Origin: Anaerolineae bacterium
GTDB taxonomy: Bacteria > Chloroflexota > Anaerolineae > Aggregatilineales > Phototrophicaceae
Reading direction: 5' to 3'
Assembly (NCBI GenBank): GCA_025454525.1
Contig: JALOOG010000006.1
Span: 1 to 64,000, forward strand
DNA: 64,000 bases
How positions within the stretch are numbered: the first letter of the stretch is position 1; every line of letters starts with the position of its first letter. Shown one piece after another: positions 10,038-27,670 of the stretch. The notes beneath the pieces are model-generated. The model saw only the letters and a list, made by a program, of their open reading frames with translations. It was not told where the DNA came from and made no database searches. A program made the translations under genes and the position numbers.

Positions 10038-10041
10038 AAAT

Positions 10042-10075
10042 AACGGGAATGTGTTTTACCACATTCCCGTTTTGA
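10042..10075 (+). terminator. Rho-independent terminator of tRNA-Ala
   Basis: A perfect 12-bp stem (AACGGGAATGTG with CACATTCCCGTT) and a six-base loop, followed by a short T-rich stretch, directly after the tRNA. Confidence 0.8.
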
Positions 10076-10117
10076 TTCTGCCTTTACATCATAAAATGCT
10101 TGATTAGTAAATTTTCA

Positions 10118-10154
10118 CACGTAAGGTGTTGATAGAATAAACACACCTTACGTG
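10118..10154. repeat. 12-bp perfect inverted repeat
   Basis: CACGTAAGGTGT at 10118-10129 and its exact reverse complement at 10143-10154, with a 13-base spacer. It lies 24 bases beyond the stop of the helicase gene and may end that transcript, though no T-run follows on the minus strand. It also marks the left edge of the candidate island. Confidence 0.6.
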
Positions 10155-10178
10155 CTGCACGAACCTTAAATTTACCCT

Positions 10179-13100
10179 CTACTGTAACTCTTCAATCACT
10201 AGATATGTTGCTTGAACTGTCCCATCGGCACGGATAAAATCTAACCCACGCCCAATAAACAATCGTGCTTTTGTTTGGTCTGTACGAACAATTTCAATCC
10301 AGCGATCGTGTTCGCTACGATCCGTTTTACATTCTTCATGGAAGGTAATGTTTGAGATGCGTGCTTTTACCTTTAAGTCATTGAAAGCCTTTTGTTGACT
10401 GGAACGGTCATATCCCTCCAGTTTCGCGTCACGGGTGATCACCTTAACTTTCTCTAAAGCCCCTCCTGCATAAGCTAATTCAATGTATGCACCCAAGCGA
10501 TTAAAAATGCGTTCTTTATCCAATAGATAGGGATCGTTGACCGTCATTTGTTTAACTGGATACTCAAAAAATTCGACGATGGCTGGGATACCACTTTCCC
10601 AAGTAGGACGACTCGAAGCGGTAATACGATAAACACGGGTTGTTGAAGGCGGTTCAAGTTCACTTACCAAAATAGGTTTAGCACGTTGGAAGACCTGATT
10701 GTATCCCTCAACTGCCGCTTGGATACCGTTTGCTTGGGTGGTGGTAGATAAGCGTGGATTGGATAAAGTCTCGTCTAGTCGTGGTGATGTTTCATCAAAT
10801 TTGATCGCACGTCGATTTCGCTCACTTTCAGGATCAATGATGAGATGCCATTCTGGAAGTGTACTGCTCTTTTTTAGTTTTAACCCTTGGCCTTTGGTCA
10901 TCATTAAAGCGAGGTAATCAGCCTCAATCAAGCGATGTTGATGAGGGATATTATGCGGGTTAGGTGGATTCGTAAGAATCAGCTCGATCGCAACGCCATT
11001 CTGAAGCTGTTGATGGATCAGATCAAGCCACGAACGGTTTTGCCCAACTGGGATCACATCTTCAATCTGGTTTAAGGCCAAGCGAATAGATTGTTTTGCA
11101 TTTGCGATCATTTCCCACAGCACTGCGATACGATTATTCGCGAATAACTGCATCACACCTAGCGGATGGGTTTGATGGGTCAAGTAAGCCTGTAGATCTT
11201 CTAGAAACGAAATAACCTTGCCTCGTTTCAGGTATGGGTAAGATAGTTGATTGTTGTAATCACGTAGACAACGGGTGCAGCTGGTATCTTCTGTACAGTG
11301 TGGGCAACGCACTAGCATTAAGGCCGCCTCAACGACTTGAGGAAAATTTTGATCGATGTCGCGGACATAACCTGCACCACCCGGTACTTTATCAAAAAGT
11401 ACGATGGCACGTTCCCATTCGGGTCCGCTTATAATCGGAAACAGTGCCGCGTCAATATCACTTCGTTCGATTTGTAAAGCGCGATTCGCCCCTAAAACGA
11501 GTGCGGTTTGTAAAGTGATCCAAAAGTCCAAATTCAATTTATTGGGAATGGGTTTGTGAGGTAGGGAACTGAATCGGATCAACAAGGTGTCGGTGGGTAC
11601 GCTGTGACCGAGATGAACACTTATCAGCCCACCCCCGCAAAAAGAATCCGAACAGGAATCTTTGTTACTGTTTTTCTTATTAGAAACGGCACGTCCACAT
11701 TTACGACAAAGCTTATAGCCAATGCCTCTTTTACCGCTATTCAAATAAAATAACTTGCCGTCAGTTTGAATACTACGTTGAACGAATTCGGTTGAAGGTT
11801 CACTGTTGTTGGTAGAGGGAATCATTACAGCCGTTGCCGTTTGTGTAGCTTCATAATGGACATATTGACCCGCCATTTTTCCACTGTTTTTGGGATCAGT
11901 GGTAAACCCATCTGGCACAAGATATTGGGTGTTTGAATTTTTTCCAGAATAGCCTTTATGACATATGGGGCAAGTTTCATTCATTATGGGTGCGCCGGCT
12001 GTTTGAGCGACAAGGATATGTCCACAGTTTTCACAAATGCGGTACATGAAAATTTGTGACGCTTCACGTTTGAACAGAACACCATTGCTTTTCCACAAAC
12101 GTTTGTCTGCCACTACTTCAGCACCGGGCGCAAATTCCGTAATAGCACGGCTCAAATCTCGTTGTAAACGGAGTTTATGTGACCCTCGTTGGTTATAAGG
12201 TAGCTCCAACTCCACGGTGTAAAGTGGGAAAGAATAGCTTGGTAAGATCCCTTGCCCGCTTAAGGTATCGATGAGCGCATCCTCGTTCAAACGTGTGAGA
12301 CGCTTTCCGGCCTCATCACGTTGTTTGTGCCATTCCTTGGATTGTTTTTCATTTGCTATTGTATATTGTTCAATCGCTTTACTGATCTGATTACGGTAAA
12401 TTTCACTTGAGTGCCGATAGTTTTCTTCTGCTCTTTGTAAATCAAGCAAGAAGACTCTTAACGGATCATCTGTTAAAGGAGTCCCTTCAAGAAACGAGGC
12501 AAACTCGGTCAATTTGCGTTGAAGTTGATCACTTCTTTGATGTGTCCAAGATGAAAGTTGATCGTAGTGACGCGGATTAGGGGCCTGAAGGTCGAAGAAT
12601 GCCCCTACCTTATCAAGTTGATTCGCCCCATTTTGATGTAAATACTTCAAAAAAGCACCCAAGAGCAGCGCATTGAGATGTCGTCGCTGAATTTCGAGAT
12701 TTTGAAGTGTCAAGCGTGGAATACGGACTTGTCCTCGAATCATCTCCGGTGGTGCGTCAAAATAATGCTGGTCATGGGGACGATCAGTTGCCCAAGTGAC
12801 AATAAACGCCGTCCCACTCACACGTCGGCCAGCACGGCCAGCGCGTTGGCGATAATTGGAGACATTCGGTGGCACATTGTTCATCACCACCGCTTGTAAA
12901 TCACCTAAGTCGATCCCCATTTCAAATGTGGTTGAGCAGCTTAAGATATTGATGTCCCCTTGCTTAAATCTATTTTGATATTCTTGGGCTTTTTCTGGGG
13001 CAAGTTGCGCGGTATGTTCTTCCACACGCAAAGGTTTGAGTCCTTGTTGGAAAATGTAGTAATAGTAATTCTTGTCAAAATTATCTTGAAGATTGATCTC

Positions 13101-16064
13101 CTTATACTCTCCTCCACAATGTAGCGCAGGGCAACGCAACGCCGTGTTTCCGTGACGCAAACGCTGACATTTATTACATTGATACCACTGAGTGGTTGGG
13201 CTATCGAAAAACAGATGATCAAGGCATAAACGATACCCCTCGCTTGGACTACCGCACATCACTCCTAGTTCAGGATTGATTAACCACTCCCAAATTTGGT
13301 AAAGTGCCTGGCTAACATTCTGATAATTAATATTTTGTCCGTTCGCTTCTAAGGCGATTGCCATGATGCGACAACGATTATGACGTGGAGTCGCACCTAC
13401 CCAAGGTGCTTCACCCCCTCTGGGGTTTGCACGAACAATAGCAGAATTTCCTTGATGGCGGCCAAAAGCTGGATGATCTTCTGCAATGCCATCAGGCAAA
13501 GTGATCACTTTCTCGTTACGAAGCGTATCTAACAAATAATCAATTACGGTATGTGTTTGTTCGTCCGTTAATCCGAGTTGATCAGCTAGGGATGAAACAT
13601 CCGGTTCAGTTTCAAAATAACGGACACGTAGCAATCCCAGTGACTCAAGGGACTGTCTTCCGCGTCGCTTTGTAGTGATTTCTGCCAAGATTTGAACTTT
13701 GGTAAAACGCTGTAAACGTTGACGTTGTGAACTTGTAAGTTTATTCCAAGGTTTGTTACGTTGGTAAAATTGGTCTTCAAAGATTTCATCAATTTCATCG
13801 TCTAACAAAGTCTGAAAGATATTTAACCTTTCCCAACCGATCTCTGTGGCTTTCTCAGCGAGATCGATGAGATCAATAGAAGGATGATTCAGTTCAGCTA
13901 CAGTGAGTGGTAAGAGATAGCGTAACAAATCTTGGTTAAATACGTCTTGTAAAAACGCGGCGTAGCGCGCTGCACCTTGTCGACTATCGTAAAATGAGAG
14001 CAGTTTACGTCCTGCACCGGGTTTACTCTTGATCTCTTTATCGGAAGACTCTGGAAGCTGGCGATAGAGTTCCATAGTCAACACCGACAGAGGAGTCATA
14101 CCGCCCATGGTGATAGGAGTCGCAATTTCTTGCTCATCAAATCGTGATTCCGATCCGCAACGAGCGCAACGCTTTAGACTATCTACCCAATTCGTTCGTG
14201 TGGATGATTCATTCTTTTTATCGGCATGGGTGATTGTGATGGGATAAAGTTGGATATGCCGCGGGGTGAGTCCTTTGGTTTTGCAGTCACAACGCGACTC
14301 GCGACGACATTCTGCATTGATGCAAATGGTAATTGGCTGAGTATCAATGCGGGGGATATCCTGTGATGAGGTGTTTTCTACTTCGTCTGTGTCATCTAAT
14401 GCTTCATTTAATTCAGATTTTGACCACACAAAATAACGTGGGTCAAGTTTTTCATCGGGTTTAGTTTTAGGTAATTCTGTACAGTATTGTCCGTTTTTGT
14501 AGATGGTTTTAATGTATACCTGCCCACAGGTTCGACAAACAGACAATGGAAAAACCGCGCAATCACAAAAATCACACTTTACCCGCGGACTACCAAACAA
14601 ATACGACCATTTTTCGTCACTATTTTCAGGTCGCCCCTTACAAGTGGGATTTAAACATACCCACATGCCTTGCGGTGAACGTGCGAAGACATGATAACGT
14701 GCTGGTAGTAAGGCAGCGGCATCCGGGTGTGGGCGTGCCATAGTTGCTAATTCCACCAAGTGGTATAAGCCCCTAATGGAGTCACTTTTTGTCACTGGAT
14801 TAGTTTGACTTTCGGGGAAGAGGTGTGCAGCTGCTTCGGTAAGTTCAAGAGGAGTATCTGGTGTTTCTGCCATCAGTTTTCGTAAAGATTGGATGTGAAA
14901 ATTGTCTTTAAGGATGCTGTAAAGGAGTTGTGGTACGCCTTCAGTTGCAACATCTGTTGAGTCATCGAATAGCTTAAATTCCGAAAGAAACTCCCATACC
15001 TCTTCCACTGTGGCGCTGTTTACCCGCAATTTTTCAAGTAAGTCATCCCAAAGGTGATGAAGATAAGCTTCTAATGGCGGTGATTGATCGTAGTTTGAGG
15101 TAGACGTAAGATCCTCATACTCTGATTCTCCGAAAATGATGTTTTCAGAGGTAAATTCTTCCCCAAATAGCGTTTTGGCAAATTCAACGGCCTCAAGGGG
15201 TTCATTCGTAAGTGTAGCACTGGTGCCGATACAGACCATTTCACAGGGTTTTTTACCAAGATGATGTTTTAAGCGGCGGATAAGATAAGCGACTTCGATG
15301 CCTTTTGCGCCGCTATAAGAGTGGGCCTCATCTAAAACGATGTATTTCCAATCATTTGGGTAACGAAAAAGCGAGTCATCGCTCGGCCGCAAAAGCAGAT
15401 ATTCCAACATAGCGTAGTTGGTGATCAAGATATTGGGGATTTTTTCACCGTTGCGGATCTGTTCACGACTGATGACTTGTTGAGCTGGCACATCTGATTG
15501 ACCGGTTTGTTTTTTCCAGTCTTCGGTGGTATTGGATAATTCACTGGTATAACGGCCGTAGGTGATATTAGTCCCATCTAGCAATTTTCCCAGACGGTCA
15601 AGCTGATCGTTTACTAGTGCATTTAATGGGTAAATTAGAATAGCACGAACGCCTCCGGCCGGATGTTGCAATAAATCATTTAAGATTGGGATCAAGAATG
15701 ATTCTGTTTTACCGCTCCCAGTACCGGATGATACGATCACGCTACTACCCTTGACTATTTGTTCAATAGCGCGTTGTTGATGTTGATAAAGGGGAGCATC
15801 TAACGGAATGGGCGGGTTTCGGAGCTTAAACAGTTTTTCCGAAAGCCATCCTTCATCAATCAACTGTTCTGAAGATTTTCCGCGTTTATAAGGTTGGGCA
15901 AATTCTAAAAAAGGTCCAGTAATGAGTGCTTGTTCGCGTTCAAAAGCGTCACGTATTGCACCGTATAAAACTTCGTTTTTCCCATCACGATTAACATCAA
16001 AAGTGGTCAGTAGGTAGTGAATAAGAGCTTCTTTCAAGCGTCTAGTAACATCAATTGGATTCAT
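10179..16064 (-). CDS. DEAH-box helicase with DUF1998/MZB zinc module and PLD-like C-terminus (DpdJ/DrmA-like)
   Basis: A 1961-residue superfamily-2 helicase. Lobe 1 has Walker A SGTGSGKT (residues 113-120), DEAH (245-248) and SAT (282-284). Lobe 2 has TFEMGIDLG and QRAGRAGRR near 1040-1080. Cysteine clusters suggesting zinc ribbons lie near 470-515 and in the middle region. A DUF1998/MZB module with GGAGYVRD and CPHCxxxxxCxRCLRDY is near 1570-1610. The last 330 residues look like a phospholipase-D-type fold: RIAVLWEMIANAKQSIRLA near 1635 starts it, and EHDRWIEI with LFIGRGLDF near 1920 resembles the HDR...GRGLD signature of MIT_C-type PLD domains. DUF1998 helicases occur in DISARM and Dpd defence systems. 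It overlaps the upstream 1093-aa gene by ATGA. DNA translocation coupled to restriction is inferred, not shown. Confidence 0.85.
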   Translation of the reverse strand: MNPIDVTRRLKEALIHYLLTTFDVNRDGKNEVLYGAIRDAFEREQALITGPFLEFAQPYKRGKSSEQLIDEGWLSEKLFKLRNPPIPLDAPLYQHQQRAIEQIVKGSSVIVSSGTGSGKTESFLIPILNDLLQHPAGGVRAILIYPLNALVNDQLDRLGKLLDGTNITYGRYTSELSNTTEDWKKQTGQSDVPAQQVISREQIRNGEKIPNILITNYAMLEYLLLRPSDDSLFRYPNDWKYIVLDEAHSYSGAKGIEVAYLIRRLKHHLGKKPCEMVCIGTSATLTNEPLEAVEFAKTLFGEEFTSENIIFGESEYEDLTSTSNYDQSPPLEAYLHHLWDDLLEKLRVNSATVEEVWEFLSEFKLFDDSTDVATEGVPQLLYSILKDNFHIQSLRKLMAETPDTPLELTEAAAHLFPESQTNPVTKSDSIRGLYHLVELATMARPHPDAAALLPARYHVFARSPQGMWVCLNPTCKGRPENSDEKWSYLFGSPRVKCDFCDCAVFPLSVCRTCGQVYIKTIYKNGQYCTELPKTKPDEKLDPRYFVWSKSELNEALDDTDEVENTSSQDIPRIDTQPITICINAECRRESRCDCKTKGLTPRHIQLYPITITHADKKNESSTRTNWVDSLKRCARCGSESRFDEQEIATPITMGGMTPLSVLTMELYRQLPESSDKEIKSKPGAGRKLLSFYDSRQGAARYAAFLQDVFNQDLLRYLLPLTVAELNHPSIDLIDLAEKATEIGWERLNIFQTLLDDEIDEIFEDQFYQRNKPWNKLTSSQRQRLQRFTKVQILAEITTKRRGRQSLESLGLLRVRYFETEPDVSSLADQLGLTDEQTHTVIDYLLDTLRNEKVITLPDGIAEDHPAFGRHQGNSAIVRANPRGGEAPWVGATPRHNRCRIMAIALEANGQNINYQNVSQALYQIWEWLINPELGVMCGSPSEGYRLCLDHLFFDSPTTQWYQCNKCQRLRHGNTALRCPALHCGGEYKEINLQDNFDKNYYYYIFQQGLKPLRVEEHTAQLAPEKAQEYQNRFKQGDINILSCSTTFEMGIDLGDLQAVVMNNVPPNVSNYRQRAGRAGRRVSGTAFIVTWATDRPHDQHYFDAPPEMIRGQVRIPRLTLQNLEIQRRHLNALLLGAFLKYLHQNGANQLDKVGAFFDLQAPNPRHYDQLSSWTHQRSDQLQRKLTEFASFLEGTPLTDDPLRVFLLDLQRAEENYRHSSEIYRNQISKAIEQYTIANEKQSKEWHKQRDEAGKRLTRLNEDALIDTLSGQGILPSYSFPLYTVELELPYNQRGSHKLRLQRDLSRAITEFAPGAEVVADKRLWKSNGVLFKREASQIFMYRICENCGHILVAQTAGAPIMNETCPICHKGYSGKNSNTQYLVPDGFTTDPKNSGKMAGQYVHYEATQTATAVMIPSTNNSEPSTEFVQRSIQTDGKLFYLNSGKRGIGYKLCRKCGRAVSNKKNSNKDSCSDSFCGGGLISVHLGHSVPTDTLLIRFSSLPHKPIPNKLNLDFWITLQTALVLGANRALQIERSDIDAALFPIISGPEWERAIVLFDKVPGGAGYVRDIDQNFPQVVEAALMLVRCPHCTEDTSCTRCLRDYNNQLSYPYLKRGKVISFLEDLQAYLTHQTHPLGVMQLFANNRIAVLWEMIANAKQSIRLALNQIEDVIPVGQNRSWLDLIHQQLQNGVAIELILTNPPNPHNIPHQHRLIEADYLALMMTKGQGLKLKKSSTLPEWHLIIDPESERNRRAIKFDETSPRLDETLSNPRLSTTTQANGIQAAVEGYNQVFQRAKPILVSELEPPSTTRVYRITASSRPTWESGIPAIVEFFEYPVKQMTVNDPYLLDKERIFNRLGAYIELAYAGGALEKVKVITRDAKLEGYDRSSQQKAFNDLKVKARISNITFHEECKTDRSEHDRWIEIVRTDQTKARLFIGRGLDFIRADGTVQATYLVIEELQ

Positions 16065-19000
16065 GCGTGGTCCTTATCTGAAAAATAAAGAAAAATAAAC
16101 TCTGTCCAGATGAGCGCCCAATTGAGTAATTCTGGACAACAGGTGTTTGCACTTTGAAGATGATTTAGAAATTGCTGATGTTGTGTGCTGCTTAACAAAT
16201 CAGCGAAACCGTGTGCGTAAGCACGTGCGATCACCGCTAATGACATCACCATGGGATCTAGCATCTCCCAGTCGTTTGCTTTACGATTTTCCAATTCGCC
16301 CCCGATCCACCGACTCGCATAGATCAGCACGGCCACTTGCTGATTAGACAAATGCTTAAGCAAGGACTCAATAAATGATTGGCTTTTATACAGGGATGCG
16401 AATAGGTTAGCGTGATTACCAATTTTTAATACCCAAGCGGCGGTAGCCTGTTCATACATCTCTTTTGTAAGCAATGTGTTTGTGCGACCTGCAAGGTCGT
16501 GAGCTTTTCCACGTTCATAAATTCTAAGCTTACGTTGCAAACCTCGTTCAATAAAGGGTGTAAAGCTCCATGTAAATCCCCTTAACTCTTCCAGTTTCCA
16601 AGGCAAGGCTTCAATCTGTGCATGGAGTGGATGGGTTGCTAAATCCACGATTTCTAATTTAAATTGACCGTGAAAATGCTTAGATCGATCGTATTTGTCC
16701 CAGATCAATTCCCCACAATGCAAACACTGATGCAGGGAATTTGGTTTAATTTGGAGATATACCCGATCATCTCGAATTTCGAGAGGGATTTCTTTGATTT
16801 TTTCACCTCCAGAAAAGCTGTGTTTAATCGTAATTGTCATTTCTGGGCTTTTTTCGTTTATAGGATAATTGAGAGAACCAGATAGACGCAATTGCCGTTG
16901 ACGCGGCGGCATAATTTTCAAGACTTGTGGATGATCGATGAGTTTAAGCTCACGGTATATGCTTAGGAGACTCGGTAATAGTTGTGGAGCCAAGGACTCA
17001 AAATACTTGCGAGGCAGTAAGGCTATTAAATATGAGGGCGTTGGCTTAGGTTCGCGGCGAGTATACTGAAGCATAACTTTAAACGCACTAATAGCCTCTT
17101 TAATGACTTGGGGTTGTTTCTCAAATTCGCTGAATTGTGGTCGGATAAAAGTAAACAGATTAATAGCTTCCAATGAGTCTTTAAACCATAACTTTACCGC
17201 GACCTGTTGACCTTGATAAGCACGCAGCATATCGGTGAGTTGAAGTGTTTTAATTAAGAGGTCTTGTGCGCCACGCGCATTGAGTAGCTCCTCTCGTGGT
17301 TGGCCATCACCGACTGAGAGGTAAAAAGCAGACTTTGGTTTACCCCGAATCGAGATCACTGCTTGATCAAGCGCATCTTCAAATAAATAGTTTCCGTTAA
17401 GTGGTGTCACCCAAGCAAAAGACCATTTGATATCAAATGTGACAGGGAGAAGCACATTACCGAATTTCAGTCGAAATGCGGCATCTTGCCTTGGATCAAC
17501 CCAAGTAATCATGACTGAATTGGCTTCAATATCTACTTGTGCGTCGCTTGCTAGATCAATTTGATCCTTATTCACCCCTTCAATGCGTATTGTTGGTTTT
17601 TGATGTAAGGTGTAAAAAGTTTCGGTTGGGCTTGGAATTATATGAACACTAGGGGGAAGTAACCCTAATAGGCGTGTGTCACCGTGTGTGCGCGAAAGTC
17701 CACTAAACACCTCTACTTGTAAAAGACAGGCGGGCGGAATGTGGTCGTTTAAGCGGATGCGTAAGATATGTTGCTCATTCAGGATTTCGCGAGTGACCTG
17801 ATTTTTGTTTTCTAACAACTTATCAAGTCGATGCACCGAAACTTGATCATTTGCGATCAGTCTAACTGATAATCGCCCCAAGGGGATGGTCGCCGGTGGA
17901 GATAATACAAGCCAAATATCCCCTTGTTCATAAATAGGGAGCGCGCCACTGGTCAATCCTCTTACTGGGTACTGTCCTTCCAATATTGGATTAAGACGGT
18001 TGCGACGTTTATCAATGCGTTTGTCACCTAACAAAATTGGAAGTTTGAGTGTGTAACGGGCTGCGACGGTATGGCCTTGTTCTTTTAACATTTTGGGAAC
18101 TGGCAATGGATAATGTTGAGTCACCATACCCCCTTCAGCAGCGCTAATCGTTAAACCTTTGGGTAAGCTGATTGCATAATCACCATCCGTCAATCGATCT
18201 CCGCTACTCAAAAGCGCAAAATCATCTTCTGGTTGCACTTTAAAAAATGCTGGATGTTGATCTGGTGATGCTCCAGTAAATATCGGAGGGGTCAAGGCAT
18301 GATCATGTTTATCAACAGCGACTATCACACCTTCCCCTTCAATGTCGATGATCGTCGCTGTATCAATTACATAACCGGTGTTGGTACGATAGGCGTTTAC
18401 CTCACAATAATCTCTTCCGTAATTGGGTACTAGTTGTCCCACCTGAATTGATTTTTGCTTTTCAGCTTTTAACCAGACTAAGCGATCAGGGGGTGTTTCC
18501 CCTTCCATGGCCAAGTTTTTGATGTTTAATTCCAAAATATCATTTTGTTCAATTAACCATCCCCATCGAATACGCAGAGACGCGGAACGATGTTGCTGAA
18601 GTTGATCCGTTTCGGGGAGCGTCGGGTGAATTTTGTGCCAGATTTCTGCTTCAATCGGTGCGAGTACCGATGCAATGTCATCAATATGTAGTCCTTCAAC
18701 ATACCAAAGTACCGCCGTGGCCATCGTTTTGATTAAGCGTGCTGCGGTGACACAGGTATCTTTGCTTTGTAGAAAGCGTATTAAGCGTTTCCTGATCGGT
18801 GCTGTAAAGTGAGACGTTTCATTTTGTGTTGCGATTTGATCTGCAAACAATTTATCCAAGCTTTGCCAAGCTTGTTGATTAGGGTAATGTTTGAGGAAAA
18901 ATTCGACAAAATCTTCTTGTAAGTAAGCGGGTAAAATAGCCTGGAGATAAATACCACCTACTACTTCTTGGTTCATTTGCTCCCGTGCAGGAAATTCAAA

Positions 19001-19342
19001 ACCATACTTTGCTTGTAATTCCGCACGCGATTTTCTAAAAGCGTCTCGATACTCATTTTCGAGCATCTGAGTTTTGTCTTTCTTTAAAATATTTTGGAAA
19101 TATTTTTTCCAAAAATTGATGTTTTCATCTTCTTCAAAATCTGCATAACGCGCACAAAACACCATTGAGGTGATCAAGACATTTGCCGGGATATCTCTTA
19201 CTTTGGTGCATGAACGTAAGGAACCGGCCAGTATTTTTAGATCATGTTCGGTAAGTGGTAATTCACCGATCCAATCAATGTTTTGAAAGACTTGTGTTAA
19301 TTTTTCGTTGAGTGTATCTAGCGAGTCAGTATGATTAAACAT
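16061..19342 (-). CDS. Unknown 1093-aa protein, helicase partner, zinc-binding motif
   Basis: I do not recognise this family. The N-terminal 250 residues look helical. Residues about 270-700 read like a series of beta-rich domains (for example LRIRLNDHIPPACLLQVEVFSG). Near 870-895 a motif CLHCGELIWDK...HFHGQF, with two Cys and two His, suggests a zinc ribbon. The C-terminal 200 residues look helical. It starts the leftward operon and overlaps the helicase start by four bases (ATGA), so the products are probably made in fixed ratio and act together. It could be a substrate-recognition or scaffold subunit of the island. DpdI or a DrmB-like role are possibilities only by position; no DUF1998 signature is seen. 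Confidence 0.75.
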   Translation of the reverse strand: MFNHTDSLDTLNEKLTQVFQNIDWIGELPLTEHDLKILAGSLRSCTKVRDIPANVLITSMVFCARYADFEEDENINFWKKYFQNILKKDKTQMLENEYRDAFRKSRAELQAKYGFEFPAREQMNQEVVGGIYLQAILPAYLQEDFVEFFLKHYPNQQAWQSLDKLFADQIATQNETSHFTAPIRKRLIRFLQSKDTCVTAARLIKTMATAVLWYVEGLHIDDIASVLAPIEAEIWHKIHPTLPETDQLQQHRSASLRIRWGWLIEQNDILELNIKNLAMEGETPPDRLVWLKAEKQKSIQVGQLVPNYGRDYCEVNAYRTNTGYVIDTATIIDIEGEGVIVAVDKHDHALTPPIFTGASPDQHPAFFKVQPEDDFALLSSGDRLTDGDYAISLPKGLTISAAEGGMVTQHYPLPVPKMLKEQGHTVAARYTLKLPILLGDKRIDKRRNRLNPILEGQYPVRGLTSGALPIYEQGDIWLVLSPPATIPLGRLSVRLIANDQVSVHRLDKLLENKNQVTREILNEQHILRIRLNDHIPPACLLQVEVFSGLSRTHGDTRLLGLLPPSVHIIPSPTETFYTLHQKPTIRIEGVNKDQIDLASDAQVDIEANSVMITWVDPRQDAAFRLKFGNVLLPVTFDIKWSFAWVTPLNGNYLFEDALDQAVISIRGKPKSAFYLSVGDGQPREELLNARGAQDLLIKTLQLTDMLRAYQGQQVAVKLWFKDSLEAINLFTFIRPQFSEFEKQPQVIKEAISAFKVMLQYTRREPKPTPSYLIALLPRKYFESLAPQLLPSLLSIYRELKLIDHPQVLKIMPPRQRQLRLSGSLNYPINEKSPEMTITIKHSFSGGEKIKEIPLEIRDDRVYLQIKPNSLHQCLHCGELIWDKYDRSKHFHGQFKLEIVDLATHPLHAQIEALPWKLEELRGFTWSFTPFIERGLQRKLRIYERGKAHDLAGRTNTLLTKEMYEQATAAWVLKIGNHANLFASLYKSQSFIESLLKHLSNQQVAVLIYASRWIGGELENRKANDWEMLDPMVMSLAVIARAYAHGFADLLSSTQHQQFLNHLQSANTCCPELLNWALIWTEFIFLYFSDKDHA

Positions 19343-19470
19343 GGTAAATTTTCACTGATTTGAACCTTCAAGTGCAAAAACTTTTTGTTACTATCCTAAA
19401 CACATGGTATGCTACATAGCAATTATCAGTTTGCTGTCAACAGCGTATCACATAGTATATTTGAAAAATC
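19343..19470. promoter_or_regulatory. Divergent promoter region of the candidate modification/defence island
   Basis: This 128-base stretch separates two head-to-head operons. On the minus strand a perfect TTGACA lies at 19440-19435, with TATGTA 16 bases on. On the plus strand TTGCTG lies at 19431-19436, with TAGTAT 16 bases on. The two -35 boxes overlap inside the near-palindrome CTGTCAACAG. A second small palindrome, GCTACATAGC, is at 19411-19420. Shared, mutually exclusive or repressor-controlled transcription is plausible but inferred. Confidence 0.5.
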
Positions 19471-20646
19471 ATGAAGATTCCAAAAAGTGATCATCTTTTA
19501 TTCTTCATCATCCATAAATTAAGTATGGGGAGAATTACCGATGAAGAAACCACATTTATCTATCATTATTTAAAAAGTAGACACAATATCAACGGTTGGA
19601 CACAACTGGGTGATCTCTATGGACTTGATGAGCTTAAGTTACAAAATACGGAAAAAATTATTCTTCGGCGTTTATCATTAAATGGATTGATGGAGATCAA
19701 ATCGTGGTTAAACGGGTGGTGGGCAGGGGAAGATTACATTACTAAATTGTCTTCAAGTGAGCGCACTTGTTTAAAAAAATTGGTTGACAAAGGAATTTGG
19801 CTACATACTCAAGCCTCTAGTCATCATGAGACTCGACCTGCGCCCCCAACTTGGTTGGTTAAGAGTGAACAAGCGCCATCGGTGATCTCTAAGCCTAGTG
19901 CAAACCTTATACCCACATCTATCATCCCACCGCTTAGCGAACAACACACGAACCCTTTGCCCAAAGTAGATCGACAATTACCGCGTAAAGCGGATCACTT
20001 GAATTCGAAACAGGAAGATCATACGCTAACTCAATCTGAACCGATTCTCGCTAAATGCCCATCGGTGATTATTCGGGAGATGAAGCAGCCAGAACAATTT
20101 TTAGAAGCATTGCTTAAGCTTCATTTCTGGCTTCATGAGGCCCCTCGCATCGTGGCACATTTGGAGCAGTTTGTTGCCCAGCAATGGCATCTGATGAATC
20201 CGGTTGATTTTCAGAAGGCGCTAGATTTATTATATGGTGTTGGTTTGCTCAAACCCCTTAAGGCGACTCAACATTATCTACCTGTGGTATCTATGCTTAC
20301 TGCCGATTTGAATGTCGCTCAATTTCGCCGAACTTGTGCGGAAAAGTTTACTCACCGCATTCAGGGGAATCATGTGCTTCTTGGCGCGATGGATTATTTT
20401 GATCAAGTTTCCCTAGATCGGCTTCATGGTATCTTAGCGCAGCATCAAGCAATGCCCGATCTCTTAGTGCGGCTTACCCTGTGGGAATCATTTGGAATCA
20501 TCCAACAGCAGCGTAAAACTAGCTGGAAAATCACCCAAGCGGGACGCACTCTTGCCGCCACTTTGCCGCGCTTTGCTCCTCCTGAGATAACACAACCTGA
20601 GTTGATCGAACTTCCGTCTGAAGAAGATTGGTTGGATGTACTATGA
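19471..20646 (+). CDS. Winged-helix-like protein of unknown function, first gene of the TGT operon
   Basis: A 391-residue protein with three parts. An N-terminal helical domain (1-115) includes LILRRLSLNGLMEI-type helix-turn-helix spacing. A hydrophilic Pro/Ser-rich linker covers about 116-195. A C-terminal domain (about 200-391) ends with LWESFGIIQQQRKTSWKITQAGRTLAATL, which has the look of a winged-helix recognition helix and wing. No catalytic motif is visible. It could be the regulator of the divergent operons or a DNA-binding subunit. Its stop overlaps the next start (ATGA). I do not recognise a named family. Confidence 0.65.
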   Translation: MKIPKSDHLLFFIIHKLSMGRITDEETTFIYHYLKSRHNINGWTQLGDLYGLDELKLQNTEKIILRRLSLNGLMEIKSWLNGWWAGEDYITKLSSSERTCLKKLVDKGIWLHTQASSHHETRPAPPTWLVKSEQAPSVISKPSANLIPTSIIPPLSEQHTNPLPKVDRQLPRKADHLNSKQEDHTLTQSEPILAKCPSVIIREMKQPEQFLEALLKLHFWLHEAPRIVAHLEQFVAQQWHLMNPVDFQKALDLLYGVGLLKPLKATQHYLPVVSMLTADLNVAQFRRTCAEKFTHRIQGNHVLLGAMDYFDQVSLDRLHGILAQHQAMPDLLVRLTLWESFGIIQQQRKTSWKITQAGRTLAATLPRFAPPEITQPELIELPSEEDWLDVL

Positions 20647-21146
20647 GTGCGATTCCTGATGCGATTTCTGAGCGGATGCGATTGGTTTTAGAAAAGTTAG
20701 TTGAACAATTAGATAACCATGTAATAGTCTGTGATTTGGTAAAACTTCATGCTTGGTACGACGAAAATTACGTGGGTTTAGCAGATGATAAAGTTGCAAC
20801 ATGGCGTGGTTTTAGCGCAAATCTACGCTCTTTAGGAAATTATCGAACAATCTATATAAATTACGTCATAAACCACCATTCAATAGATGTAAATAATCGT
20901 TTATTTGGTGAAGATTTTGCAAAATCTGTAGAACACCTTGATGATTACGTGTGCCTCTACGTTACAGCTTGCCCCATTAAAAGTATTTCAAAAATTCACG
21001 ATTCTGGATTTACATACAAAAAATTTACCCGTAATATTCACCCTTGTAGGGTAGTTTCTACCGATGATTTTTTGTCAAAATCTATTTCTAATTTTGTTGA
21101 CGATGGATTAAAGCTAATTTTGCTACAACGCGATTATTGTTTCTAA
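20643..21146 (+). CDS. Small unknown protein upstream of the TGT-like gene
   Basis: A 167-residue protein started at the ATG overlapping the previous stop. It is rich in Asp, Val, Ile and Asn, with no signal peptide or membrane segment. Several aromatic and Cys residues lie in the C-terminal half (VCLYVTACPIKSISKIHDSGF). I recognise no family. It is clearly more AT-rich than the flanking operons, as is the next gene, suggesting the two arrived together. Its place directly before the transglycosylase suggests a partner or an accessory role; a DpdB (ATPase) or DpdC role is not supported by any motif seen here. Confidence 0.6.
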   Translation: MSAIPDAISERMRLVLEKLVEQLDNHVIVCDLVKLHAWYDENYVGLADDKVATWRGFSANLRSLGNYRTIYINYVINHHSIDVNNRLFGEDFAKSVEHLDDYVCLYVTACPIKSISKIHDSGFTYKKFTRNIHPCRVVSTDDFLSKSISNFVDDGLKLILLQRDYCF

Positions 21147-21170
21147 ACTTTTATTAAGATTGGGGAAAAC

Positions 21171-22172
21171 ATGAATTTTATCGCATCGCTTACAAGAGAC
21201 TCTGGTGAACTAAATACTATGTTTCGATTGTGGCAGGAACATGGTGATGAAAGAGATCCTTTTGCAAACGTTATGATCACACCATTGTTTATGCCCCCAA
21301 ACGGTAAAAAAGTGATTCAAAATTGGCGTGAAAAAGGGATAATTAAAAATTTGTACTTTGATAGTGCAGGATTTTATGTGCAGATGGGGAAAATTGAATA
21401 TACACGATTATTCTCTGAGTTGTTAATGGTATATCGAAATGAACAATGGGCTGATTGGTATATTTTACCTGATCATGTTCCAACTTCAGGTGACGCAGAG
21501 GAAACCATTTGGAAAAAAGTTCGAGACACAGCAGAATACAGTCAAATGTTTTATGAAGAACTTCCTAGCGAATTACAAATGAAATCAATTCCAGTAGTTC
21601 ATGGTTTTACAGCTGCTCAAGCTAATTACTCTTTGCAAGCAGCTATAAAATTAAAGACAGGGTATATAGGATTTGGAAGTTTTAGTACAAGTGGAAAAAG
21701 TTCTTCAATCAATAAACTCACCCCCGCCGCTTACACACTCCTATCACAGATTACAAATAAAATAGCTCAAGCATCAATTAAATTACATGCTTTTGGAGTA
21801 AGCACACCTCCGGTAGTTCATTTACTTCGGCAATTAAAAGTTTTTAGTTTTGATTCGATAGGTTGGATGAAAACTGCTGGATTTGGCAAGGTGTATATGC
21901 CATATGTTAGAGCTTATAACATAACATACAAAGATAAATCAGCACAAACCATTACGAGATATGAATTTGAGGAAATGCAAGCAATTACAGGACATACCTG
22001 TTTTTTTTGCAGTTCTTTTCAACAATTACATGAGAAACGTTACTACCGTATCATGCACAATTTAAGCGTAATGATGGATATGATGCACAAAGTCTATACA
22101 CCTGACCATATACACCTGATTTTAGATCGATATTCTGCTAAATACAATTTTATTAACGGAGAAATTAAGTGA
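21171..22172 (+). CDS. tRNA-guanine transglycosylase-like enzyme, DpdA-like (predicted DNA base exchange)
   Basis: 333 residues with the TGT barrel signatures in order: YFDSAGFYVQ (general-acid Asp about D64, matching the DSGGFQ loop of TGT), PVVHG (about 141-145), GFGSF (167-171), HAFGVSTP (206-213) and FSFDSIGW (nucleophile Asp about D228). A zinc site follows with CFFC (C277, C280) and HNL (H296, as in TGT). It is short, and FDSIGW replaces the tRNA-type FDCV motif, as in DpdA-type enzymes that swap guanine for a 7-deazaguanine in DNA. Phage-type TGT paralogues and a tRNA role remain possible. The spacing from the previous gene is 24 bases, with GGGGAA before the ATG. No preQ0 synthesis genes (folE, queD, queE, queC) are in this window, so the base must come from elsewhere. 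Confidence 0.8.
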   Translation: MNFIASLTRDSGELNTMFRLWQEHGDERDPFANVMITPLFMPPNGKKVIQNWREKGIIKNLYFDSAGFYVQMGKIEYTRLFSELLMVYRNEQWADWYILPDHVPTSGDAEETIWKKVRDTAEYSQMFYEELPSELQMKSIPVVHGFTAAQANYSLQAAIKLKTGYIGFGSFSTSGKSSSINKLTPAAYTLLSQITNKIAQASIKLHAFGVSTPPVVHLLRQLKVFSFDSIGWMKTAGFGKVYMPYVRAYNITYKDKSAQTITRYEFEEMQAITGHTCFFCSSFQQLHEKRYYRIMHNLSVMMDMMHKVYTPDHIHLILDRYSAKYNFINGEIK

Positions 22173-22969
22173 CCACTCAGGAGTTAAGTTTCCATGTTCG
22201 CCATGAAGTTTTTCCTGATCGTATATTGGAAATTATACGTAGTATTTCAGACAATGAACCTATTGATACCGTTGTTCAGTGGGATCGTCAGCTAAAACGA
22301 ATGCGTGATTTCGGATTATTAACCGATGATAGGACATTAACATCCATCGGAGAAATTTTACTTAGGGTTACTCTGAAAAAAAAGATAATCTGGGGAGAAT
22401 TGATGCATTTCCTTCATTATACCACATGGAACGAAGCATCTCCCTATCTAAATGGCTTTAGCTGGTTTTACCGTACCTTTTGTGACTACCTTTTCGAGCA
22501 AGAAGGTTTCAAATTTGGTAACACTGAGATCTCTAACCGAGTTTGTGTTCAATTTAACGATCAAATTGAGGCAACTGAGATTTTCCAACCTTATCTAAAC
22601 GGAAATCCATCACTTAGTGCAAATTCGATCACAGGGATTCAACATTGGTTAGATGCACTAAATCCTCCCGTGATTGTGAAGAACATATTCAATCGTCGTA
22701 ATTTTTGTTCACCGGAATTGCTGTTGTTGGGGATCGGTTGGATTTTTCGTGATGAGCCAGATCCGATTGGAGTACCATTGTTACTCTCGCGTCCACAGCG
22801 CGAAATCCTGTGTCGGTTATGTCTACTTGATCCGAAATTTTTTGATCGAACCTTAGATTGGCTGATCCCGCGCTATCCGAAAGTGATCCTTTCGGAGGAA
22901 AAAGCTGGTTTCTATGGTCGCAGTATTCGTCTGCGTAAATTACCTAGTTTGGAGGATCTGTACTCATGA
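22169..22969 (+). CDS. Winged-helix-like protein between TGT-like enzyme and ATPase (DUF4007-like layout)
   Basis: 266 residues. The start is GTG, overlapping the TGT stop (GTGA). The N-terminus reads FHVRHEVFPDR, then LKRMRDFGLLTDDRTLTSIGEILLRV, then ELMHFLHYTTW and FSWFYRTFCDYLF. This order (HE-F-R, LT-x-x-G, LH...W, FxWFY) recalls the DUF4007 family found beside DNA-modification genes, but the match is by eye and weak. A DpdG-like assignment is equally possible. The middle (YLNGNPSLSANSITGIQHWLDAL) could be a second helix-turn-helix. It probably links the ATPase to DNA or to the modification enzyme. No enzyme motif is seen. Confidence 0.6.
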   Translation: MTTQELSFHVRHEVFPDRILEIIRSISDNEPIDTVVQWDRQLKRMRDFGLLTDDRTLTSIGEILLRVTLKKKIIWGELMHFLHYTTWNEASPYLNGFSWFYRTFCDYLFEQEGFKFGNTEISNRVCVQFNDQIEATEIFQPYLNGNPSLSANSITGIQHWLDALNPPVIVKNIFNRRNFCSPELLLLGIGWIFRDEPDPIGVPLLLSRPQREILCRLCLLDPKFFDRTLDWLIPRYPKVILSEEKAGFYGRSIRLRKLPSLEDLYS

Positions 22970-25900
22970 GTTTAGAAGGTCTGAATAATCTGCTCGAAAA
23001 AAATGAGGTGGTATCTACCGCCTCTGCCTTGGATCTACGTGAACGTCCAGAAGCGATCGAAGCAGGCTACTTACGGCATGTGCGGACATTCATCCCGATG
23101 AGTCGCTATGCGGAAGGGGGAACGTTTAGTATTGAAGACTTTCAAAAGCGTTTGATCAAACGCACGCGTGAAGGGAAAGCACCCCGTGGTTACATCGCAG
23201 CGGGTTATGGTTATGGGAAAACGTCAACAGCGCTGTATATCTGGCAACAAGCAGAAGCGGCAAATCTGTTGACCGTCCCCCCATTCCAATTGGAAAAACT
23301 CTCCTATTTGATCGAAGCTTTGTATGGTTGGGCGCGCTATTGCTTAAGTAAAAAGCGCCCGGCATTAATTGAAGACTTGGATGCGGCGTATGAGAAGGTG
23401 GTCAACCGCTCTTTAGACGGTATGGCTAAAAGATATAATGTTTCACTAGAAGATGCCCAAAAGATGTTGGATAATGGGGTACTCAATCTAGAAGCGCAAC
23501 CGAATGAGTATGTTGGCTTTTTTAGCGCCGTGACGGAGATCGCGTTACGGGCAGGTTATAGTGGCGTAATTCTGATTGCAGACGAGATCCAACAATTTAT
23601 CCGTCCCCGCAATGAAGGACGTGTTGATACCATTTCCCCACTTTTTAATGTGATCCAATTGTTGGGAACCCATGAACCGGATGCCTCGTTAAATTTTGGA
23701 TTTTTATTGAGCATCACCCTAGAGGAAATCGCGATGATCCGCGATTCCCATAAACGCGGTGATCTCTTAGCACGGCTCAAAGAACTAAGCATTGATCTAA
23801 CCGATCTCTACGATATGAGCTTTGCGCGTAATCTGTGGGAACGGCTGGCCAAAGAATTTGATTTTGCTACAGAGGCCGAGGAGGTGATCGATGATTGGAC
23901 ATTAATTGCATTGGGTAACATCAGCGCTAATAAAATGATTTCGGATGGACCCCGTACAGTCGTGAATGTCTTGAAGCGAGCAGTCGCGGTTTACTTAGAA
24001 CGACTGCAAAATGGTGATGCAAGACCCTATACCCCGATCAACATGATCGATGATTTTCTGGATGAACGGATCTACTTTAAAGGCAATGATAAACTTCCCA
24101 GCATTACTCGCCAAAGGCTTTTACACCCGTTTGTCTCGCGTGATCTTCCTCGTTATGGCCCGGCCATTAAATTGATCGCGGCTTTTAGCGTGGAAGGCGC
24201 ACCGTGGAACGCACAAGTGTATTATCAACAGGTGGATGCACTTCAAGAACTTATGAACAAAGGGATCGGTGAAATTGTCCGTGTTGGCACCAATTTTGCA
24301 GATCGTTCGATTGCCCTAGTGGGTTTGGATGTTGAAGCTGATCCGAATTGGATGAAAGAGACCATTCGCAATTTCCGATTGGGATGGAATCCTCATTCCC
24401 GTGAAACGATGGATCGAACTTTTGAGGCCTTCAAGACCGTTTTAACGGAACGGGTCTTTCCCAAAGCGAAGATTATAGAAATTCGTCCGGCGAACATGGT
24501 AGCAAATTACGCCATTATCTTGGAAGTAGATATTGTGGCTGATCAAGGCAGGCGTTATCCTAAGCGAAGACTGCACATCCGGTTTTATTGGGAGGATGAA
24601 CCACTGAAAGACGCAGGGATTTTAGGGGATGTGTGCTTGGAGTATCGTTTAAGCACTTATCGGACAATTCCCGCTGGTGAGCGTCGTCAATATGCTGAAC
24701 CCGCACACCGATCTGATGAAGCACACACCATAACCATTCCGCTTAATTTGGACTATGCACCCCCTGATGCGGTGGAACGTGCGCTCTATAGTGAGCTTAA
24801 AGATGTCTGGTCTCCTTATGATTTGTCACCGATTATCTTGTTGAATCTGTATCAATTGATGGTTGAGCTTAAAGCGTCTGGGGATATGCCGTCAAAAGAT
24901 GTCAGTATGATCGAATCTGCTTATCTACCAGAATTTGTAGATTATGCCACTGTGGATCTATTTAATGAACAGGTTGGGGCCAATGTTGAAAGTGCTGGTG
25001 CCGAGATTAATACCCTTGCTTTGACCTATTTGTTTAAAGAGCGTTACCCTGACTATGTGACCTTGATGGGGACACAAAATTGGGCCTCTAGCCTTGCCAA
25101 ATACCTTAATGCCCTCCGCCAATTAGATTCCCCGCTCCATCGTCGTGGCGATGAAGTCGTGAGTGGTAGTAAAGACGAGATTGCTGACAAATTTACACTC
25201 TCTAATACCGGTTTTGACTCGTTTGCCACTACTTTCAATTCATTGATAAAAATTGAACGAGATTTTAGTAATCGACAACCGGGGCATGTGCGTTTTACCT
25301 TACATCCTTTGGAACGTTTGGTGGTTGAATGGCTTCGTGATTCGGATCATACCGTTCAATCAGGAAAGCATACGGTCAAACGCATAAGTCGTTCTCAAGT
25401 GTTGCGTTGGGCCATAGAGGGTGGATATCAAACTGAAGAGATCGAAAAGACGTTAGAGATTCTTGAAGCGCGAGAACTGATCACCTGTAACACTGATTGG
25501 ATTACCGAAACAGTAAGTGAGTTTTTAGATCTAGAGGCTTTAAAAACCGATCTTCACGCTCATCGGGAAGACGTAAGAGCGTTGGTTGCAGCTTTTCCGG
25601 ATGAAATCATTCGTAACTATTACCAGAAGGTCAGTCAAATCACTCAAGCACTTGACGCACAACTACAAGCGAAAACTCCAGACTTAAGTCAACTTAACAA
25701 GATCGCCAACTCACTTAAGAATAATCGTAAAGATGTCAACGCTTTTGCTAAAGATAAACGCCAAGAGCTAGGCAGTCGTTTAGGAAGAGTTAGTATCACC
25801 GCGCTTCGCGAAAATGAGTTGATTTTGTTGCACGAACCGATGGTTGATGAGGTTGATTATGTAGATCAAGTCAACGCGCTCCGTGTATGGTTGTCTGGTG

Positions 25901-26988
25901 AGATCGATAAAACCAAGCGCAAAGTTGATGATCATGAATCCGAAATTAAACGTGTGCGTGAACTTTTACGTCCCGACATCGCTATTAACGAATTACCACA
26001 AATTTCTGCCAAGCTCAAAGAACTGGAAATTGTCCAAAGCACCTTGCAAGGGAGTGTCCTTGAAGCGCGAGATAAGTTTAAACATTATGAAAACTGGCGC
26101 GCCTTGGTCAAAGAAGGCGCAAAGGTTATCCAAGAACTTGATGAGTTACGTTTAGAAGGGGTGAAGATCATCCGTGAACAGATGAAGCATTTAAGCACTG
26201 ATTTACGAGCTGAAATTAGTTCACGCAAACTAGGTGCTTTAACGGATCATCAGAGGTTTACTATTCAATTGGAGGATATTCGACGCTCTTTAGAGGATTT
26301 ACAACGCAATGCGCGTGCAGGCTTCGAGTCGGAACGTGATCAATTTGTTCGACAGTTACGTGAAATGGAAGCAAAAATTGATCCAAAGTTATCCACTTTA
26401 GCCTTTAATCCCAGCGATCCTAAAAACGTTTATACCCTGCTTTATGATATAGCGGCGAATCAATTTAGGGCCGTGTTTCAGGAATTACGAAATTACATCG
26501 ATGCTCGCAAACAAACCACACAGGTATTACATCGACAGGCTTCTCAACTTTCTTCACGAGAAAGCAGCGCACTTCAAAACCAAGCGGAACAGATCGAAGT
26601 GCTTTTGAATCAGGCGCAAACTCACGCTGCCAATTTATATGCTCAATTGGAGACACTACTTACCTCAAATCAGCTATTGAAACATATTTCGGCACTTACC
26701 AACGATTATAAATCGATCCGTAGAGATGTGATGGAGTTACAACGTCAATTAGAAACCTTGCGGAGTAGTGTTAGTCAACTTGAACCCAATGTTCAAGAAA
26801 AACGTTTACGTGACTGCCTTACTCCACTTATCTCAACATCTGAAACTCGTGTGGATATTTTTACCCTGCAACGCGCTTATGCTGATGATGCAACCTTCTG
26901 GGCTGCCTTACGAGGTTTACTGGAAAAAGATTGTATTACGCTTGCTGCTGGGTTTCCAACAGCCAATTTTGCCACATCAGCATCATGA
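22966..26988 (+). CDS. Large P-loop ATPase with coiled coils (BrxC/PglY- or DpdH-like layout)
   Basis: 1340 residues. Walker A is GYGYGKTS at 80-87 and Walker B is VILIADEIQQF at 201-211, a pattern of AAA-like STAND/BrxC-type ATPases in which an Asp-Glu is followed by xQQF. The region up to about 650 is mixed alpha/beta, with sensor-like PRTVVNVLKR. Residues about 770-860 look like winged helices (RLVVEWLRDS, RSQVLRWAIEGG). From about 870 to 1290 the protein is mostly charged heptad-rich coiled coil. The start overlaps the previous stop (ATGA). Large ATPases of this layout are core parts of BREX (BrxC/PglY) and Dpd (DpdH) systems, so it probably powers or gates restriction or modification. 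The exact family cannot be assigned without a profile search. Confidence 0.75.
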   Translation: MSLEGLNNLLEKNEVVSTASALDLRERPEAIEAGYLRHVRTFIPMSRYAEGGTFSIEDFQKRLIKRTREGKAPRGYIAAGYGYGKTSTALYIWQQAEAANLLTVPPFQLEKLSYLIEALYGWARYCLSKKRPALIEDLDAAYEKVVNRSLDGMAKRYNVSLEDAQKMLDNGVLNLEAQPNEYVGFFSAVTEIALRAGYSGVILIADEIQQFIRPRNEGRVDTISPLFNVIQLLGTHEPDASLNFGFLLSITLEEIAMIRDSHKRGDLLARLKELSIDLTDLYDMSFARNLWERLAKEFDFATEAEEVIDDWTLIALGNISANKMISDGPRTVVNVLKRAVAVYLERLQNGDARPYTPINMIDDFLDERIYFKGNDKLPSITRQRLLHPFVSRDLPRYGPAIKLIAAFSVEGAPWNAQVYYQQVDALQELMNKGIGEIVRVGTNFADRSIALVGLDVEADPNWMKETIRNFRLGWNPHSRETMDRTFEAFKTVLTERVFPKAKIIEIRPANMVANYAIILEVDIVADQGRRYPKRRLHIRFYWEDEPLKDAGILGDVCLEYRLSTYRTIPAGERRQYAEPAHRSDEAHTITIPLNLDYAPPDAVERALYSELKDVWSPYDLSPIILLNLYQLMVELKASGDMPSKDVSMIESAYLPEFVDYATVDLFNEQVGANVESAGAEINTLALTYLFKERYPDYVTLMGTQNWASSLAKYLNALRQLDSPLHRRGDEVVSGSKDEIADKFTLSNTGFDSFATTFNSLIKIERDFSNRQPGHVRFTLHPLERLVVEWLRDSDHTVQSGKHTVKRISRSQVLRWAIEGGYQTEEIEKTLEILEARELITCNTDWITETVSEFLDLEALKTDLHAHREDVRALVAAFPDEIIRNYYQKVSQITQALDAQLQAKTPDLSQLNKIANSLKNNRKDVNAFAKDKRQELGSRLGRVSITALRENELILLHEPMVDEVDYVDQVNALRVWLSGEIDKTKRKVDDHESEIKRVRELLRPDIAINELPQISAKLKELEIVQSTLQGSVLEARDKFKHYENWRALVKEGAKVIQELDELRLEGVKIIREQMKHLSTDLRAEISSRKLGALTDHQRFTIQLEDIRRSLEDLQRNARAGFESERDQFVRQLREMEAKIDPKLSTLAFNPSDPKNVYTLLYDIAANQFRAVFQELRNYIDARKQTTQVLHRQASQLSSRESSALQNQAEQIEVLLNQAQTHAANLYAQLETLLTSNQLLKHISALTNDYKSIRRDVMELQRQLETLRSSVSQLEPNVQEKRLRDCLTPLISTSETRVDIFTLQRAYADDATFWAALRGLLEKDCITLAAGFPTANFATSAS

Positions 26989-27428
26989 AGTTTTTGATTG
27001 AACATGCTTGTGTTGATGACTTAGCCGCAATTAAGCAGATATGTGATCAGCATCGAACTGAATTGGGCTTTGTGATGCGTCCGTCCTTAGAAGCCGCGAT
27101 CAAAGCAAAAGAAGTTATTGTTGCCCGAAACAGGAATGACACGATGCGCTCATGTATTGGGTTAGTACATTATCATCACCGACGTGATCAACAAACTACG
27201 CTTTACCACCTAGCTGTGAGTAAAGAAACACGGTTGGTCGGAGTTGGACGAGAACTCGTTTTCGCGCTTCGTGATGAAGCGCGAAAACACCAAAAAACGT
27301 TAATTCGACTTAAATGCCCAGAAACATTACCGGCGAATTTGTTTTATGCAAAAATCGGTTTTGTCAAAGTTTCTGTAGAACCGGGTAAATCACGCCCATT
27401 ATGGATATGGGAACTAGCCGTTAATTGA
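26985..27428 (+). CDS. GNAT acetyltransferase, last gene of the TGT/ATPase operon
   Basis: 147 residues with the start overlapping the ATPase stop (ATGA), so it belongs to the operon. GNAT motifs are LYHLAVS (strand 4), RLVGVGRELV (R83-x-x-G-x-G88, the acetyl-CoA loop) and LPANLFYAKIGF (motif B). The family acylates amines with acyl-CoA. Phage Mu Mom, which modifies adenine in DNA, is a GNAT-fold enzyme, so an acyltransferase tied to a DNA base-exchange enzyme could decorate the inserted deazaguanine. It could also be an unrelated protein acetyltransferase or a regulator. Activity on DNA is inference only. Confidence 0.8.
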   Translation: MKFLIEHACVDDLAAIKQICDQHRTELGFVMRPSLEAAIKAKEVIVARNRNDTMRSCIGLVHYHHRRDQQTTLYHLAVSKETRLVGVGRELVFALRDEARKHQKTLIRLKCPETLPANLFYAKIGFVKVSVEPGKSRPLWIWELAVN

Positions 27429-27553
27429 AAAAGTAAGATTTTAGTCAATGTGACGGATAGTAAGCGAGATACTGAAGATCATACTTTCAAATGTGAATGA
27501 CTTCAAAGTCTAGAAATAAAAAATTTATCCTTGTGAAAAGCTAATATTTTTGG

Positions 27554-27640: not shown

Positions 27641-27670
27641 TCCTATATGAACAATGTATCAGGCTTGAAA

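Follow-up and report, generated by a model that had tools for sequence, protein, structure and literature searches.

Defence by transglycosylase-mediated base modification is known from Dpd, and DruM of Druantia is a cytosine methylase. Phage DpdA enzymes put 7-deazaguanines in DNA, and dPreQ1-containing phage genomes are known (PMC6884629). In BREX-Related Capture (BRC) systems HerA is stated to be universal and a TGT/GNAT pair has already been noted as an optional part; DpdB can be dispensable (PMC12839542). Druantia III has DruH as its likely sensor and DruE as its helicase-nuclease effector (PMC13192584), and Druantia II consists of DruMFGE (PMC13316683). BRIGADE, in which Dpd-like and ARMADA/Druantia-like parts are combined around YprA helicases, has been reported from halophilic archaea alone; it usually has two such helicases, along with a preQ0 gene cluster (PMC12458937).

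We analysed an island within a 64,000-nucleotide stretch of DNA (the window) from an Anaerolineae bacterium, a host of the same phylum as Chloroflexus. The reading that we favour, with a confidence slightly better than even, is that of a modification-restriction anti-phage island in which a TGT-like enzyme and a GNAT mark self DNA and a DruE helicase restricts DNA that lacks the mark.

Gene content of the island

The island comprises eight genes in two divergent operons, at 10179-19342 on the minus strand and 19471-27428 on the plus strand, and every ORF was found where a preliminary description of this DNA had placed it. The minus-strand operon reads from a 1093-aa gene into a 1961-aa gene; the plus-strand ORFs encode 391, 172, 333, 266, 1340 and 165 aa. 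Four-nucleotide overlaps, which had been claimed for nearly all junctions, are present at five of the six within operons (1093/1961, 391/172, 333/266, 266/1340 and 1340/GNAT), the 172/333 junction being the sole exception with a 24-nt gap. In-frame ATGs that overlap the upstream stop are better starts for the 172-aa gene and the GNAT gene. The features are as follows, where G719 is another genome of the same family as the window genome.

10179-16064, minus strand: DruE/YprA-family helicase, 1961 aa, likely restriction effector (PADLOC DruE3 E 1.5e-227, DruE1 E 3.2e-217)
16061-19342, minus strand: 1093-aa protein in the DruH position, overlapping DruE by 4 nt; likely a sensor or partner
19343-19470, no strand: divergent intergenic region, 128 bp by ORF coordinates, presumed control region of both operons (same divergent layout in G719)
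19471-20646, plus strand: 391-aa protein (G719 homologue in the same place, E 1.9e-11, 23% identity)
20643-21146, plus strand: small protein, about 167 aa from the ATG at 20643 (172-aa ORF; G719 homologue in place, 30% identity, E 1.5e-26)
21171-22172, plus strand: TGT-fold, DNA-guanine-transglycosylase-like enzyme, 333 aa (AlphaFold2 model, arcTGT superposition, DpdA profile match)
22169-22969, plus strand: 266-aa winged-helix-like protein, possible target-recognition subunit
22966-26988, plus strand: P-loop ATPase, 1340 aa, with a long coiled coil and a BrxC/BrxD-like N-terminal region
26985-27428, plus strand: GNAT acetyltransferase, 147 aa from the ATG at 26985 (165-aa ORF; Pfam Acetyltransf_10 E 1.6e-9)

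GC content dips to 0.39-0.44 across the island (10000-28000), against 0.48-0.53 over most of the right flank and 0.48-0.49 just to the left, which fits horizontal acquisition; the flanking proteins that were scanned include no integrase.

An AlphaFold2 model of the 333-aa protein, built with 25 family members, is a TGT barrel (pLDDT 91.9) onto which arcTGT (1iq8) superposes with the best Z score in VIA-align (Z 27.1 over 289 residues, 2.8 Å rmsd), and Foldseek placed DpdA (7ui4) at rank 7. By sequence profile the enzyme lies nearer the DNA enzyme DpdA than the tRNA enzymes, as had been proposed: 7ui4 was the sole match of the family profile among PDB sequences (E 5.6e-4), and the protein matched the PADLOC DpdA model (E 1.6e-4), the DpdA NCBIfam NF041059 (E 5e-5, 22.3 bits against a curated cut-off of 200) and, weakly and below cut-off, Pfam TGT (PF01702, E 1.1e-4). 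Asp64 (DSGG), Asp101 (LPD) and Asp228 (FDS), which from motif position and general knowledge of TGTs we take to be the catalytic and substrate-recognition aspartates, are invariant in the family, and the zinc motif H-x-C-x2-C...H (H275/C277/C280/H296) is nearly so. The motifs FDSAGF, FSFDSIGW, HTCFFC and HNL singled out earlier are in the sequence and kept across the family. The model has no C-terminal tRNA-binding domain. A separate canonical tRNA TGT is encoded in the host genome (E 2e-157), so the island enzyme would be redundant in that role, and with the sub-threshold PF01702 score this led us to reject its identity as a tRNA TGT. A Brig1-like glycosylase was likewise rejected, Brig1 having a uracil-DNA-glycosylase fold (PMC11078745). 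A more distant TGT-like protein (L011:9068-9982 in G323, 30% identical over part of its length) lies outside the module, among UvrD-like and other defence-like genes.

The window genome (G000) has no true QueC match and no QueF, in line with the earlier remark that genes for preQ0 synthesis are not visible, and it has salvage genes: QueA and a Vut_1/YhhQ-type deazaguanine transporter, alongside the canonical tRNA TGT. The host therefore probably salvages a precursor, most simply preQ1, and the missing preQ0 genes are no argument against 7-deazaguanine chemistry. A link to that chemistry is supported by gene context in relatives: a Haloplanus plasmid has queC, queE and queD immediately next to the TGT, and in Chloroflexaceae SM2_1_1 (G214) 12 nt separate the ATPase from a downstream Vut_1/YhhQ-type transporter gene.

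Two calls made at the outset for the plus-strand operon hold, the ATPase having Walker A (GYGYGKT) and Walker B (DE) residues invariant in 16 members and the GNAT an intact acetyl-CoA loop (RLVGVG) besides its Pfam match. Six of the 16 ATPases match Pfam BrxC_BrxD (best E 2.3e-6); the Pfam label DUF6079 was not reproduced for this family. The GNAT had been seen as an addition to a Dpd-like set, a view that does not survive comparison: most loci, and the phages as well, have it next to the TGT or in one polypeptide with it. The fused form, with the GNAT joined to the N-terminus of the TGT, is that of cyanobacteria, Poribacteria and an acidobacterium; elsewhere the two are neighbouring genes. 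The archaeal module GNATs (L007 24707-25204; L031 13631-14107) have diverged strongly from their bacterial counterparts, perhaps because they act on another base. In the 266-aa family, weak HTH matches were confined to single members and the Pfam label DUF4007 was found in none of 22. L020 encodes a 342-aa protein whose N-terminal part is homologous to the 172-aa protein. No named family was matched by the 1093-, 391-, 172- or 266-aa proteins, and a Wadjet/MukBEF reading of the small proteins and large ATPase was rejected for want of Pfam or PADLOC support.

The 1961-aa protein has DEAD, Helicase_C, MZB (zinc-binding MrfA) and PLD-like C-terminal MIT_C domains in Pfam, with Walker A at residue 114 and DEAH at 245. 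A helicase with a PLD-like end had been described, and so far this stands; the canonical HxK motif of such an end is however absent, the only candidate being HDR at 1919, and H-x-R is common to the DruE proteins compared. Its assignment as a Dpd-type helicase has to be replaced by Druantia DruE, given the PADLOC DruE3 match. The 1093-aa partner had no Pfam or PADLOC match. It agrees with DruH in size and position, yet hhalign against DruH was not significant; homology to DruF, DruL or the cyanobacterial 967-aa partner of DruE was rejected on the same grounds. A single-sequence AlphaFold model gave no usable fold (pLDDT 33). The P0001 plasmid search gave no match and, in a sample of 400 genomes of the phylum, only the window itself matched. 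Relatives, reached only through the neighbours of DruE homologues, adjoin the closest DruE proteins in G708, G697, G521, G698 and G719. In the first four of these no TGT of the window family was found with the pair, which therefore does not need a TGT mark everywhere.

Conservation of the core and exchange of its partners

TGT relatives were detected at 23 loci in genomes, on two plasmids and on two viral contigs. The 266-aa gene lies beside the TGT in all 26 cellular loci and the ATPase is present in 23 of the 26 within the stretch read, at least one of the other three (L012) being cut by a contig end. The core of GNAT, TGT, 266-aa protein and ATPase occurs in Chloroflexota, cyanobacteria, Poribacteria, an acidobacterium and haloarchaea, and culturable carriers include Chloroflexus islandicus isl-2, Oscillatoria nigro-viridis PCC 7112, Nostoc calcicola FACHB-3891 and Halorientalis regularis. 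Its company varies. In group I the core is joined by a small AAA protein, a weakly PglZ-like protein and HerA, and these loci fit the published BRC system (PMC12839542). Group II loci have genes for DruE2/4, DruF (DruF2/4) and DruL (DruL4), in many cases divergent from a GNAT-TGT operon. Group III is the window type, with the 391- and 172-aa proteins, TGT, 266-aa protein, ATPase and GNAT divergent from the 1093-aa protein and DruE. The effectors joined to the core are interchangeable.

The preliminary description had named co-conservation elsewhere as a check. The gene set is more than a chance grouping: all eight genes recur in G719 in the same order and orientation, and the core recurs across several phyla. 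One end of G719 contig C25 carries ATPase, 266-aa, TGT, 172-aa and 391-aa genes followed by the divergent 1093-aa homologue, with the GNAT overlapping the end of the ATPase; that end is identical over 141 bp to the start of contig C7, on which DruE lies. Protein identities to the window are only 23-47%, so the arrangement has been kept over a long divergence.

The TGT tree, by contrast, splits the two loci: the window TGT pairs with a phage enzyme (support 0.99) and that of G719 with the BRC-type locus L015 (support 1.0); TGT and effector have therefore not moved together as an indivisible unit. In G719 the TGT and 266-aa proteins are 57% and 50% identical to those of L015, versus 37% and 36% to those of the window, and the G719 ATPase is equidistant from both. 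This looks like exchange of a TGT/266-aa cassette, by analogy with the target-specificity parts of restriction systems.

The same data bear on whether the island is one system. A BRC-like GNAT/TGT/ATPase operon and a Druantia III-like pair might be independent neighbours that share an island and a divergent promoter region, which would account for the pair standing alone in four other genomes, for the quite different effectors that accompany TGT relatives and for the split in the TGT tree. We consider this improbable, since G719 retains the eight-gene layout at such low identity and since a GNAT-TGT operon divergent from Druantia-type genes is seen again in group II. A single island in which marking and restriction are coupled remains our preferred reading.

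Several loci hold further genes. Second 266-aa/ATPase pairs lie beside the GNAT-TGT operon at L009:3771-8651, L017:15330-20118 and L028:11341-14078, and in their 266-aa genes these second copies resemble the window more closely than do the first. Upstream proteins of 693-868 aa (L012:2792-5398, L013:584, L014:7315-9558) fuse RNA polymerase alpha-CTD-like, sigma region 4-like and HARE-HTH domains, and are possible readers of modified DNA. In cyanobacteria a trio of helical protein, AAA ATPase and PRTase-CE phosphoribosyltransferase follows the ATPase (L018:16121-19382, L025:15915-19350, L034:15930-19213).

L035 (G400), a phage-like record with structural-looking genes among its translations and 113-bp terminal direct repeats, encodes the TGT that is closest to the window enzyme among known relatives (56% identity). 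The TGT gene spans the ends of this record, and next to it comes a GNAT with 45% identity to that of the window. In a second phage (L036:3953-5300), on a contig with a primase-polymerase gene, GNAT and TGT are adjacent; the TGT appears frameshifted before the zinc motif, and the rest of it is found a short way downstream in a different frame. No match to the ATPase profile (a search run without a positive control) or to QueC was obtained in either record. A protective DNA mark would be of use to a phage; in the simplest reading, the GNAT/TGT pairs would counterfeit the mark of the host.

Proposed self-marking and alternative roles

Under the marking model the TGT-like enzyme would swap guanine in host DNA for a 7-deazaguanine base, here from a salvaged precursor and probably preQ1, and the GNAT would acylate the inserted base or otherwise complete the mark. 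Acylation of preQ1 is chemically reasonable because it has a primary amine. The 266-aa winged-helix-like protein and the BrxC-like ATPase may choose and present the DNA target, leaving the 1093-aa protein as putative sensor and DruE, with its PLD-like end, to recognise and destroy unmarked DNA.

We infer marking of DNA from a conserved TGT fold with its catalytic and zinc residues and DpdA as the sole PDB sequence match, from a core conserved over several phyla within a layout kept in G719, from queC/E/D or Vut_1 genes that adjoin the module in two relatives, and from the side-by-side TGT and GNAT of phages L035 and L036. Counting against the model are the 1093-aa/DruE pairs that occur without this TGT and the non-canonical nuclease motif of DruE, the TGT trees that split window and G719, and the archaeal loci, which have no obvious preQ1 and divergent GNATs. 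The strongest comparative hint that the GNAT-TGT operon is the modification side comes from group II, where by gene position it appears to stand in the place of the methylase, as if modification modules had been exchanged.

A bolder version, which we put forward tentatively and hold to be probably wrong in at least some part, is that TGT and GNAT make up a two-step machine for DNA hypermodification: preQ1, or some other 7-deazaguanine, would be put in by the TGT and then acylated by the GNAT to yield a base not known from cellular DNA. This mark would be the self-signal for interchangeable effectors (HerA/PglZ, Druantia II/IV and Druantia III-like), and phages would copy the two enzymes in order to counterfeit it.

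The same enzymes could instead be used offensively, TGT and GNAT swapping bases in phage DNA to leave damaged or flagged sites at which DruE unwinds and cuts. Removal of DNA bases is a known defence principle (Brig1, PMC11078745), and the non-canonical C-terminal motif of DruE means that other chemistry might supply the damage. Phages that carry the same pair are however expected of a protective mark and not of a weapon, and the precursor synthesis and transport genes co-located in two relatives fit stable incorporation, so that we regard offensive use as quite unlikely. Modification of tRNA or other RNA, as part of an RNA-based stress or defence system, is least credible of all: the fold is closest overall to arcTGT and the family to which the phage members belong bears the name queuine tRNA-ribosyltransferase, but a canonical tRNA TGT is already in the genome, the linkage is to DNA helicase-nucleases, a BREX-like ATPase and HerA, the only PDB profile match is a DNA-guanine transglycosylase and the tRNA-binding domain is missing.

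If host DNA is marked, GNAT and TGT with the winged-helix-like protein and the ATPase emerge as a portable marking module for unrelated DNA-destroying effectors, among them Druantia types for which no deazaguanine mark is described in the open-access literature searched. Phages with a TGT/GNAT pair, one of them holding the nearest relative of the window enzyme, suggest that such self-marks are counterfeited.

Comparison with described systems

The preliminary description had set the island down as related to but distinct from Dpd. Distinct it is: the TGT scores some 22 bits against the DpdA cut-off of 200, no QueC is encoded in the genome, and DpdB, whose absence had been noted, has no NF041060 match in this 97% complete genome; no match to DpdC, D, E, G, H, I or K is listed for the eight proteins, and a GNAT is present. 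The likeness consists in a TGT with detectable relation to DpdA, a large YprA-family helicase and a PLD-like domain. The closest kin of the core is not Dpd but the BRC module, which likewise combines TGT, GNAT, a BrxC-like ATPase and a small putative DNA-binding protein (PMC12839542). BRC-matching loci (L007, L013-L015, L031) are homologous to the window in their TGT, 266-aa and ATPase genes, and the window GNAT has homologues in BRC-matching loci as well. HerA is present in the BRC-matching L014, whereas the eight proteins of the window include neither a HerA/FtsK translocase nor a PglZ match; a helicase pair of Druantia III-like type and two additional proteins take their place; the window ATPase and small protein also lack the Pfam labels DUF6079 and DUF4007.

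The minus-strand operon resembles Druantia III, in which DruE has a C-terminal PLD-like region and overlaps an upstream gene for a protein of about 1100 aa (PMC13192584, PMC13316683), but it differs in a 1093-aa partner without detectable DruH homology and in the attached TGT/GNAT/ATPase operon. With Druantia II/IV (PADLOC models) the connection runs through the group II relatives, whose TGT operon is divergent from DruE2/4, DruF2/4 and DruL4; Druantia II has the methylase DruM by definition, whereas group II loci have the GNAT-TGT operon next to these genes, an arrangement that is not the window's own.

The island is thus not BRC proper, because HerA and PglZ are absent, nor demonstrably Druantia III proper, because DruH is not recognisable, and it is not Dpd. 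The best reading of its gene content is a modification-restriction hybrid in which BRC-type marking appears to be joined to a Druantia effector. In the main text of the open-access papers searched, a combination of a TGT/GNAT module with Druantia genes is nowhere described. Within that literature the nearest described hybrid is BRIGADE (PMC12458937), from which the window differs in its bacterial host, in the single YprA helicase of the island (DruE3-type) and in having no preQ0 synthesis.
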